Translations under genes and position numbers: made by a program
The notes under the pieces: generated by a model
Databases searched by the model: none
Told to the model about the DNA's origin: nothing
What the model saw: only the letters and a program-made list of their open reading frames with translations
Origin: Anaerotruncus sp. G3(2012)
GTDB lineage: Bacteria; Bacillota; Clostridia; Oscillospirales; Ruminococcaceae
Assembly: GCF_000403395.2 (NCBI RefSeq)
Contig: NZ_KE159657.1
Location: forward strand, 710,147 to 774,146
Length of the DNA: 64,000 nucleotides
Reading direction: 5' to 3'
Part shown: in pieces, positions 306-3,376 of the stretch
Position numbering within the stretch: position 1 is the first letter of the stretch
Layout: each line of letters begins with the position of its first letter

Positions 306-647
306 TTATTTCAGAGGGATGATCCGAAACGGTTTGTCCTGCTCGATACAGAGTTTAAGCGTATATGCGGTTCCACGGGATTGATTATCCCAGAACGCAT
401 AAATCTGATCGGCATATTCGACGATCTGTCGGTTGCGGACGAGCGGTGCGAGGCGTCCGTTGGTTTTATAGTCGGGACGAAATATCCGGATAGGCAGTCC
501 CAGAACCTGAGCAGCCTGCTCTGCCATCTGATCAATCCCATGTGCGCCCCCGCTTACCAGTTCAGTAGCTTCCGGCGGAATGTGCGGCAGCATCCGCTCG
601 AGGGTGAACCCTTTTACATCTCGAGACCCAACAATGGCAATCCGCAT
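306..647 (-). CDS. SLOG/DUF2493-like nucleotide-binding protein
   Basis: The 113-residue product begins with a beta-strand and glycine motif, IVGSRDV at residues 4-10, followed by SGGAHGID near residues 32-39. This is the pattern of the SLOG superfamily (YspA/DUF2493, related to DprA and lysine-decarboxylase-like folds), whose members bind nucleotides or nucleotide-derived ligands. A GAGAGGTG Shine-Dalgarno lies seven bases before the ATG at 647. The gene stands alone and is followed by a terminator-like hairpin at 237-267. The ligand and role cannot be told from sequence. It is too short to be DprA itself. Confidence 0.7.
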   Translation of the reverse strand: MRIAIVGSRDVKGFTLERMLPHIPPEATELVSGGAHGIDQMAEQAAQVLGLPIRIFRPDYKTNGRLAPLVRNRQIVEYADQIYAFWDNQSRGTAYTLKLCIEQDKPFRIIPLK

Positions 648-1059: not shown

Positions 1060-1169
1060 TTTTCCCTCTGGCGAAAATGCTTGCAGTTATTCCCCGCTAT
1101 AAAATTTGTGCGGGGTGGAACAGTAAAGGCATGAAAGACATTCAAAAAAATTGTAGGGGGAATCATCCG

Positions 1170-2396
1170 ATGAGAAAGCAATATCAACGGTTTGCGAAGC
1201 TGCTGTCACTTGCGATTGTCGCGGTGCAGTCGGTCGCTCTCTATACACAGGCGGTCCTGCCCGACCACTACTATGTAGCGGCGGGAGAAACCCTCAACAT
1301 ACGTTCCAGCCTTCCGATCACCACCCGAAGCAGCCAGGGGAGCTTGCCGGCCGAAGCGTATGCTGCCCCGGGCAACAGCTATAATGTGAACCTTAAACTG
1401 CCGTATGGAGTAGAGATCAAACAGGTGCAGGTGCAGGTGGTTGATCGCGAGATGGTCATTCCGGGAGGGAACCCATTTGGGATTAAGATGTTTACCGAAG
1501 GGGTGATTGTGGTCGGTCTGAGCGACATTGCCAGCGGTGGCACCTCTCAAAATCCGGCAAAAGAAGCAGGAATTAAGGTGGGGGATATCATTACCTCCAT
1601 GAATGGGCAGTCGGTTCAGACCAATGAGGATGTTGGGGCAGTGGTTTCCTCCTGCTCGGGCGGGAAGATCAGCGTCGAACTGGAGCGCTCAGGGGAGGAG
1701 ATGCTCCTCCATCTGCAGCCGGTCCGGGGGGATGACGGTATTTATCGCGCCGGCATCTGGGTGCGGGATAGTTCAGCCGGGATTGGCACCATGACCTATT
1801 ATAACCCGACCAGCAACGTATTCGCAGGGTTGGGACATGCGATTTGCGATGTTGATACTGGGGACATTATGCCACTGCATTCAGGTGAAATTGTCGGGGT
1901 AGAGATCACTGGGGTGAACCGCGGCGAGAGCGGTTCACCAGGCGAGCTGCGCGGCAGCTTCACCGGGGAGCATACCGGGGAACTGCTCATCAACTCACAG
2001 GTTGGAATTTTTGGGGTAGGGGAGCGCCCGCTGCGAAATGCGAAACCTGTCCCGCTGGCGATGAAATATGAGGTGACCGAAGGTCCCGCATCAATTCTCT
2101 GCACACTGGACGATGGGCAGACGCGGGAATACACCATTTCGATCGAAAAGGTGAGTATTACCGAGAACAATCCGACAAAAAACATGGTTGTTCGGGTGAC
2201 CGATCCACAGCTTTTGGCAAAAACCGGGGGGATTGTACAAGGAATGAGCGGCAGCCCCATCCTGCAAAATGGGAAACTGGTGGGGGCAGTTACCCACGTT
2301 TTCGTCAACGATCCTACTCGAGGATACGGGATTTTTGCAGAAAATATGGAAAAAATGTCAAAGGGAGTCGAAAATAGTCATAAAAACACGCGGTAA
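1170..2396 (+). CDS. spoIVB: SpoIVB signalling peptidase (S55 family)
   Basis: SpoIVB is a serine peptidase secreted from the forespore. It cleaves SpoIVFA to release the SpoIVFB protease and so triggers pro-sigma-K processing. The ATG at 1170 is chosen because GTAGGGGG precedes it; upstream in-frame codons lack a ribosome site. The 408-residue product has an N-terminal hydrophobic anchor (about residues 8-26), a PDZ domain (about 105-190), a GLGHAI motif with the catalytic His near residue 223, and a GMSGSP motif with the catalytic Ser near residue 360. Length is close to the usual 420 or so. It is followed after 114 bases by spo0A, the conserved Firmicutes arrangement. Confidence 0.95.
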   Translation: MRKQYQRFAKLLSLAIVAVQSVALYTQAVLPDHYYVAAGETLNIRSSLPITTRSSQGSLPAEAYAAPGNSYNVNLKLPYGVEIKQVQVQVVDREMVIPGGNPFGIKMFTEGVIVVGLSDIASGGTSQNPAKEAGIKVGDIITSMNGQSVQTNEDVGAVVSSCSGGKISVELERSGEEMLLHLQPVRGDDGIYRAGIWVRDSSAGIGTMTYYNPTSNVFAGLGHAICDVDTGDIMPLHSGEIVGVEITGVNRGESGSPGELRGSFTGEHTGELLINSQVGIFGVGERPLRNAKPVPLAMKYEVTEGPASILCTLDDGQTREYTISIEKVSITENNPTKNMVVRVTDPQLLAKTGGIVQGMSGSPILQNGKLVGAVTHVFVNDPTRGYGIFAENMEKMSKGVENSHKNTR

Positions 2397-2510
2397 TTTG
2401 AACAAAGTTTTATCTAAAATTTATAAAGCTTTCGTCTGCAAATGCCGTTGTAATGTGCCGGAAATCATGGTAAAATACCGACAGGGACGTGAGATTAAGG
2501 AGAGAGCTGG

Positions 2511-3290
2511 ATGAAAGAGCACACAAAAGTGCTGATTGTTGAAGGTAATGGGGATTATTGCAGTAAATGCGCACTGGCGCTTCGGACCTATGGATTTGAG
2601 ACGATCACCGCTCCTCGTGACGGGCTTGCTGTTACCCGCGTAGTTGGAGAGGCGTTGCCTCAGGTCGTATTGATGGACATTTTTATGCCTCAGTTAGACG
2701 CAATCGGCGTCATGAAAGCGGTCAAAGAGATGGGGCTGTTACATCCGCCGCGCTTCATGGTGACTTCTACATTTAGCACTCCTATGCTGGAACAGGAAGT
2801 CATGAGCGCCGGAGCTTGTTACTTCTTTTTGATGCCGTTCGATGTCGACCAGATGGTTGAGCGGATCGTCAAGATCGCGGGAGGAACGATTTCGACCGCC
2901 AGCGGCCTGCCGGAAACGACCGCTGCAAGCGAACCTGACCTTGAACTGATGGTCACCGAGATCATCCATCAGATTGGTGTGCCTGCACACATCAAAGGAT
3001 ACCACTATGTCAGAGAATCGATTATACTTTCGGTCAAATCTCCTGAAATGATCAATTCGGTAACCAAGCTGCTTTATCCGACCGTCGCCAAACGGTTTGA
3101 TACGACCGCTTCGCGTGTGGAACGTGCCATCCGTCATGCGATCGAGGTCGCGTGGGACCGCGGCGATGTGGACACGCTTAACAGCTATTTCGGCTATACG
3201 ATCCACAATGGACGCGGAAAGCCGACCAATTCGGAATTTGTTGCAATGATTGCCGACAAACTGCGCCTTCGTCTGAAAGCTGCGAACTAA
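2511..3290 (+). CDS. spo0A: Spo0A sporulation master regulator with an atypical receiver
   Basis: This is a 259-residue response regulator with an N-terminal receiver (about 1-125) and a C-terminal Spo0A DNA-binding domain (about 140-259). The effector half is nearly canonical ([39 protein letters not shown]). In the receiver the phospho-acceptor Asp56 (VLMDIFMP) and Thr85 are present. The second acidic-pocket residue is Gly12 (VEGNGD) and the invariant Lys of the LKPF motif is Met108 (FFLMPF). These changes should alter phosphorylation or its read-out. The RBS AAGGAG precedes the ATG. A strong terminator follows at 3320-3376. Confidence 0.95.
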
Positions 3291-3319: not shown

Positions 3320-3376
3320 AACCGAGATGCCGCGCCACCCGTTTGAAACGATGGCGCGGCATCTCGGTTTGTTTTG
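3320..3376. terminator. Bidirectional terminator between spo0A and the chemoreceptor gene
   Basis: Very long stem of about 18 bp (3320-3337 with 3352-3369) followed on the plus strand by a T-rich tail. The convergent chemoreceptor gene ends at 3399, so it probably serves both. Confidence 0.85.

Follow-up and report, generated by a model that had tools for sequence, protein, structure and literature searches.

The locus analysed here raises the question of whether a Spo0A whose receiver pocket is incomplete can still be switched by phosphate and, if it cannot, what else might set the onset of sporulation. As stated in passages of an mBio review (PMC11210211), all endospore-formers initiate sporulation through Spo0A, which becomes active once a conserved aspartate is phosphorylated, and the Ruminococcaceae lack the Spo0F/Spo0B relay. 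A study of Spo0 evolution split spore-formers into 33 with a phosphorelay and 15 with direct phosphorylation, according to passages of that paper (PMC6136694); neither 'Ruminococc' nor 'Oscillospir' occurs in its main text. The window, a stretch of 64,000 nucleotides from Anaerotruncus sp. G3(2012) (Ruminococcaceae, Oscillospirales), carries a spo0A gene with such a pocket.

The gene (Table 1) is a genuine, orthologous spo0A. Its product matched the NCBIfam spore_0_A profile (TIGR02875) with a full-length score of 271.2 bits, above the cut-off of 200, and Pfam recognized both halves, Spo0A_C at 151.6 bits and Response_reg at 43.5 bits. The spoIVB-spo0A gene order is present, with SpoIVB intact (TIGR02860, 396.7 bits; cut-off 305). 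Among 18 compared loci, spoIVB adjoined spo0A in 17, and 1.7 kb separated the two genes in the remaining one (L050). SpoIVB lay within the fetched stretch at all 11 loci of the genus, 90 of the 147 of the family, 20 of the 50 of the order sample and 21 of the 50 of the class sample, so that neighbourhood supports orthology for these loci. Twelve of the 17 other spo0A loci in the comparison have a match to the 113-residue gene divergent from spoIVB. A paralogue in place of the orthologue was ruled out, as the single full-length Spo0A of the genome is sited at spoIVB and a second is absent from the 3.62 Mb (24 contigs) of sequence.

Table 1. Features of the spo0A locus and related reading frames of the same genome. 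Positions are those of the window unless preceded by another identifier.
Feature	Position	Strand	Basis
113-aa gene, divergent from spoIVB	306..647	-	
spoIVB (SpoIVB peptidase), usual upstream neighbour of spo0A	1077..2396	+	TIGR02860
Two 0A-box-like words (TGTCAAA, AGTCGAA), 10 bases apart, end of spoIVB	2356..2372	+	
Sigma-A-like promoter TTGTAA-17-TAAAAT, upstream of spo0A	2448..2476	+	Pattern match
spo0A, 259 aa	2511..3290	+	Pfam and NCBIfam profile matches
Receiver domain, residues 5-125	2523..2885	+	Pfam Response_reg; AlphaFold2
Acid-pair position, Glu11 (GAA) and Gly12 (GGT)	2541..2546	+	Codons, alignments
Cys17	2559..2561		
Asp56, position of phosphorylation site, retained	2676..2678	+	Codons, alignment
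Ser86, conserved Thr/Ser position	2766..2768	+	Codons, alignments
Cys103	2817..2819		
Met108 (ATG), invariant Lys position	2832..2834	+	Codons, alignments
Flexible linker, residues 126-141	2886..2933	+	pLDDT under 50, disordered in AlphaFold2 model
Spo0A_C DNA-binding domain, residues 146-257	2946..3281	+	Pfam; alignment to 1lq1
Terminator-like inverted repeat, perfect 17-base arms, T-rich run after	3321..3375	+	Read from sequence
Short Spo0A_C-like ORF	L002:1432-1830	+	Profile match
Short Spo0A_C-like ORF	L003:1414-1764	-	Profile match
Short Spo0A_C-like ORF	L003:2165-2557	+	Profile match

The phospho-acceptor pocket of a receiver consists of two acids, the aspartate, a threonine or serine and a lysine. 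Codon checks and alignments gave E11, G12, D56, S86 and M108 for these places in the window protein, so that the first acid is retained as glutamate, glycine takes the place of the second, and methionine that of the lysine. An earlier note on this DNA had read Gly12 and Met108 in the same way, and both readings were borne out. It had also listed Asp56 and Thr85 as retained; Asp56 is indeed present, but the residue at the threonine position is Ser86, which aligns with T86 of B. subtilis Spo0A. Since a serine sits there, the hydroxyl at this position is kept.

Pseudo-receivers, or atypical response regulators, are defined in passages of Bourret et al. 2025 (PMC12632262) by the absence of any of the five residues. 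The window Spo0A is a receiver by profile that misses two of them, and is a pseudo-receiver in this sense; its predicted intact fold, and glutamate as the commonest replacement of the aspartate among its relatives, are further likenesses. It differs from the aspartate-less receivers typified by ChxR (passages of PMC4395418) in keeping Asp56, although three relatives with Glu56 and further pocket changes (L013, L014 and L015) resemble them. Compared with canonical Spo0A (B. subtilis, C. difficile; TIGR02875), it likewise follows spoIVB and shares the receiver fold, the linker, the helix sequence of Spo0A_C and Asp56, but is unlike in missing the second acid and Lys108 and in belonging to a genome with no match to Spo0E.

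On balance we think it probable, with considerable reservation, that this Spo0A is a pseudo-receiver that acts with little or no aspartate phosphorylation and is controlled by its level and by dimerisation. We propose that standard phosphorylation of Asp56 and its coupling to activation would be lost because the pocket has neither the phosphate-contacting lysine nor the second of the Mg2+-site acids. The receiver fold would be retained for dimerisation and to hold the DNA-binding domain, and the onset of sporulation would be set by the amount of Spo0A, made from its own sigma-A-like promoter and perhaps autoregulated, together with the ease of dimerisation. The genus would then stand at the far end of a loosening of phospho-control throughout the order, with no Spo0E match, repeated losses of pocket residues and Asp56 giving way mostly to glutamate. 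Weak phosphorylation, a different activation and control by level alone, the options offered in the earlier note, are all compatible with the sequence. Against this reading, the window protein keeps residues usual in working receivers (Ser86, F105, P60 and F110). Further points against it, detailed below, are the receivers of the order that stay canonical despite the missing Spo0E match, the unassociated losses of different pocket residues and the marginal or non-significant extra loosening of the catalytic and kinase-contact sites. Simple independence from phosphate would not require the persistence of Asp56 either, so it also counts against; this objection is softened by GlnR and RamR, in which the aspartate serves dimerisation without phosphorylation (passages of PMC12632262).

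The substitutions are genus-wide: a search for Spo0A in each of the 11 genus genomes found the canonical pocket in none. Position 108 is Met in eight, Leu in two and Gln in one; position 12 is Gly in six, Ser in four and Glu in one, with the alignment around residues 11-12 of L013 possibly off by one. Scoring these two positions in relatives, as the earlier note had proposed, thus gave Lys108 in 0 of 11 genomes and no acid at position 12 in 10 of 11. At position 56 there are eight Asp and three Glu (L013, L014 and L015, each with further pocket changes), and at position 86 eight Ser, two Ala and one Thr. The Spo0A of L006/L035, 96% identical to that of the window, has the same five pocket letters, and Met108 is also present in A. 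colihominis (L037, L038), Marasmitruncus massiliensis (L036) and A. massiliensis (L040). When 31 Spo0A sequences were placed on a tree with the pocket columns excluded, the 11 genus sequences formed a single clade with support of 100/100; the remaining 20 have Lys or Arg at position 108. In the simplest history, the basic residue would have disappeared once, in the ancestor of the genus, and Asp56 would later have turned into Glu once or twice, in L013 and in L014 with L015; the forks within the genus are mostly weakly supported.

Comparison of closely related pairs indicated that the altered receiver is kept by selection, at least in the short term. Receivers of the window and L006 differ by 2 non-synonymous and 24 synonymous changes (dN/dS 0.019), and L009 and L010 gave 0.034; wider pairs ranged from 0.05 to 0.19 or were saturated. 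The DNA-binding half had dN/dS near zero in the closest pairs. The Glu56 pair L014/L015 had a higher receiver value, 0.19, which counts against our reading. Sequencing error or a frameshift was ruled out, as the residues are common to relatives and selection in close pairs is strong. We also inspected other receivers of the window genome (20 of 45) and of the genus relative G001 (20 of 28), mostly the better-scoring ones, a choice that favours canonical pockets, and all 40 carried the canonical quintet. Genome-wide receiver decay was thus not seen in this sample, and the degeneration looks like a matter of Spo0A.

AlphaFold2 (50 sequences) predicted a normal (beta-alpha)5 receiver followed by the Spo0A_C domain, with a mean pLDDT of 82.9 and a pTM of 0.50. 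Within the receiver, pLDDT was 88-97 from residue 21 and 77-78 across residues 1-20, which include E11 and G12. The model bears on the fold, which is predicted to be intact, and is silent about phosphorylation. The top Foldseek matches were structures of the Spo0A DNA-binding domain (1fc3, 1lq1), and the Spo0A receivers 1qmp and 5wq0 were among those that followed. The earlier note's statement that the DNA-binding half is conserved held: the recognition helix is conserved, and the DNA-binding helix sequence is identical to that of B. subtilis Spo0A in the alignment to 1lq1. In random pairs, mean identity of this half was 70% within Oscillospirales and 62% outside, whereas that of the receiver was 32% within and 41% outside. 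Compared with other orders, Spo0A of Oscillospirales is thus tighter in its output half and looser in its input half.

The spread of pocket changes was assessed in three further samples. Of 197 family genomes, 170 had a Spo0A match, and 147 loci from 145 genomes (two giving two copies) were taken as the best-scoring among the matches listed. The order sample comprised 50 loci read of the 58 matches listed, which came from 54 of 59 genomes; for the class, 50 loci were read in 47 genomes that belong to other orders. Genus, family and order together gave 206 distinct sequences, of which 5 with gaps at pocket columns were set aside, as was 1 of the 50 class sequences. Among the loci read, at least one residue of the quintet was missing in 137 of 201 readable Oscillospirales Spo0A compared with 10 of 49 from other orders, which leaves 64 of the 201 canonical. 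Lys108 was present in all 49 readable sequences outside the order and in 142 of 205 inside it. Asp56, which simple independence from phosphate would not require, remains the commonest letter at its position (153 of 204 readable in the order), and its replacement is Glu in 36 of 51 cases. The reworked sporulation decision suspected in the earlier note fits these results, but not as a peculiarity of this organism, since the changes are genus-wide and recurrent in the order. Receiver degeneration in so many relatives suggests that these bacteria may start sporulation by another route.

A FastTree phylogeny of 303 rows (gapped and duplicate rows dropped) required at least 43 changes at Asp56, at least 33 at Lys108 and at least 36 at the second acid. 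Independent pairs on starred branches numbered 26, 14 and 17, respectively, and sign tests on six trait pairs detected no significant association among losses of pocket residues on the tree (median p 0.6 to 1); linked loss was rejected. The excess loosening of the five catalytic sites over the rest of the receiver was marginal, as 4% of random groups reached the same level. For the seven sites that Davidson et al. (PMC6136694) give as kinase contacts, 22% did so, and no special relaxation was found.

Spo0E is a phosphatase in Bacillus. Its profile (PF09388) matched none of 59 Oscillospirales genomes; it matched 24 of 59 class-sample genomes, two of these 59 being Oscillospirales and both without a match. 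For the comparison of pocket residues with Spo0E, three second copies were additionally omitted. A readable Spo0A was available for 46 class genomes from other orders; all 24 of them with Spo0E had a canonical pocket, and the 22 without it were divided between 12 canonical and 10 non-canonical (Fisher p 0.00016, kinship ignored). A canonical pocket thus accompanies Spo0E, and the absence of Spo0E seems to permit rather than force decay, because the 64 canonical order receivers and 12 of 22 outside lack a Spo0E match. Passages of PMC11115286 describe Spo0E as a Spo0A inhibitor that covers Asp56 in a predicted complex and has a further partner in C. difficile. A divergent Spo0E might escape the 42-residue profile. 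For so short and divergent a protein, which in C. difficile also acts on further partners, an absent match says little about phosphorylation.

The kinase complement is relevant to the possibility that phosphorylation of Asp56 still switches Spo0A through an altered chemistry, in which Glu11 and another group would hold the metal, Met108 would stabilise the active form in a different manner and a paired or hybrid kinase of this genome would donate the phosphate. The window genome has 19 HisKA kinases, and 3 of the 8 scanned with Pfam are hybrids with receivers. All 19 HisKA matches lie within 1.7 kb of a receiver. Considering HisKA kinases only, matches more than 3 kb from a receiver numbered 0 of 19 in the window genome, 0 of 13 in G292, 2 of 9 in G287 (one with a score below the Pfam cut-off) and 1 of 15 in G001. 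G292 and G287 served as controls with canonical Spo0A and Spo0E, and in G292 no match lay beyond 1.9 kb. The absence of orphan kinases was dropped as proof of lost phosphorylation, the canonical control G292 likewise having none.

Besides this supply of kinases, including hybrids, a retained phosphate switch is favoured by Asp56 in 8 of 11 and Ser or Thr at position 86 in 9 of 11 genus genomes, and by kinase-contact positions that are not specially relaxed. Passages of PMC12632262 add that substitutions at the acids, the threonine or the lysine do not necessarily abolish phosphorylation, some of which can survive pocket substitutions. Conversely, Glu56 in three genus members precludes the usual phosphorylation there, Spo0E was matched in no genome of the order sample, and the lysine is lost genus-wide yet in none of the 49 readable sequences of other orders. 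We regard a retained switch of this kind as possible but rather unlikely.

It is less probable still that the receiver has become a sensor of some other input, such as a small ligand, a thiol state or a partner protein, in place of phosphate, as in other pseudo-receivers. The pseudo-receiver of ShkA binds c-di-GMP (PMC7010744), titles cited in PMC12632262 refer to redox control of relatives, and purifying selection in close pairs despite fast divergence between species would fit such a role. Cys17 and Cys103 are both present in eight and both absent in three of the 11 genus sequences, and a thiol switch through them is possible. Their proximity is an assumption, however, and the three members without both cysteines also have altered pockets; moreover, no conserved gene was found downstream of spo0A across the 18 compared loci.

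Decay of the sporulation pathway, with Spo0A drifting along, is very improbable: the receiver sequence is highly variable, 27 of 197 family genomes had no Spo0A match at E 1e-40 and SpoIIE matches of the genus scored 372-411 bits, below the curated cut-off of 490.8, but dN/dS in the closest pairs is about 0.02-0.03 for the receiver and near zero for the DNA-binding half, 10 of the 11 genus genomes encode a SpoIIE-like protein that covers nearly the whole model (the remaining genome is 78% complete), SpoIVB is intact and the DNA-binding half is better conserved than in other orders.

For a Spo0A that acts largely without phosphorylation and is controlled by its level, as we propose, the flanking DNA holds candidate regulatory elements. 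The sigma-A-like pattern upstream of spo0A was initially picked by eye and then scored across the genus; 10 of 11 genomes (exception L013) have TTG.../TA...T with a 17-base spacer, 62-72 bases before the match start. This pattern and the terminator-like repeat suggest that spo0A can be transcribed on its own. Both 0A-box-like words at the end of spoIVB are one mismatch from the 0A-box consensus TGTCGAA, and a pair at the same 10-base distance was found in 7 of 11 genus genomes (at most one mismatch; a raw count, in or near coding DNA). The pair is a possible autoregulation site. Two CGACA-type words at a 13-base distance precede spoIIE in 5 of 10 genomes (at most one mismatch; exact words in 0 of 10), and 9 of 10 have a TACAAT within about the next 50 bases. 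This arrangement resembles Spo0A-activated promoters.

Extended to the order, the proposal would be that the endospore decision of Oscillospirales was freed from the His-Asp switch, with Spo0E lost first, the Spo0A pocket then decaying repeatedly, Asp56 often becoming a phosphomimetic Glu, and timing set by both the amount and the dimer state of a constitutively competent Spo0A. We offer this sequence of events tentatively and consider it doubtful as a whole. An Asp-to-Glu change alone is often non-activating, Spo0A being among the cited examples, and other changes are needed (passages of PMC4395418).

Pseudo-receivers as such are already known; they make up about 6% of bacterial receivers by direct count and 13% by earlier inference (passages of PMC12632262). 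In the present case a developmental master regulator is affected across a whole order, and Spo0A occurs 0 times in that review. No report of Spo0A receiver degeneration in Oscillospirales was present among the open-licence literature matches listed. If a major gut order does largely dispense with phosphorylation of Spo0A, it would provide large exceptions to a central developmental rule, and predictions of sporulation kinases for gut genomes would need revising. The many natural pocket states would form a ready series for testing how a phosphate switch comes apart when selection on its output persists. The review terms pseudo-receiver mechanisms a mystery (PMC12632262); a Spo0A pseudo-receiver would come with a developmental regulon and, in spores, a readout that is easy to score. 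BldM and WhiI of Streptomyces differ from Spo0A in that their output domain and spore type are unrelated. They are likewise atypical receivers controlling a development that ends in spores (PMC4125116 and PMC12632262).

Additional Spo0A-like genes were noted in several genomes. In the window genome, three short ORFs (116-132 aa) match Spo0A_C, with no receiver match there; the two of L003 are divergent with 0.4 kb between them. Binding to 0A boxes or pairing with Spo0A is conceivable for such short proteins. Some genomes of the family, G114 (L188, L195) and G073 (L206, L213), have two whole-length Spo0A matches each, which would allow two copies to be compared within one cell. In another order, G267 (L358) carries three Spo0A-like genes, two of them side by side and one apart; all score below the family cut-off, and the best of those read has Ser at the phosphorylation site.
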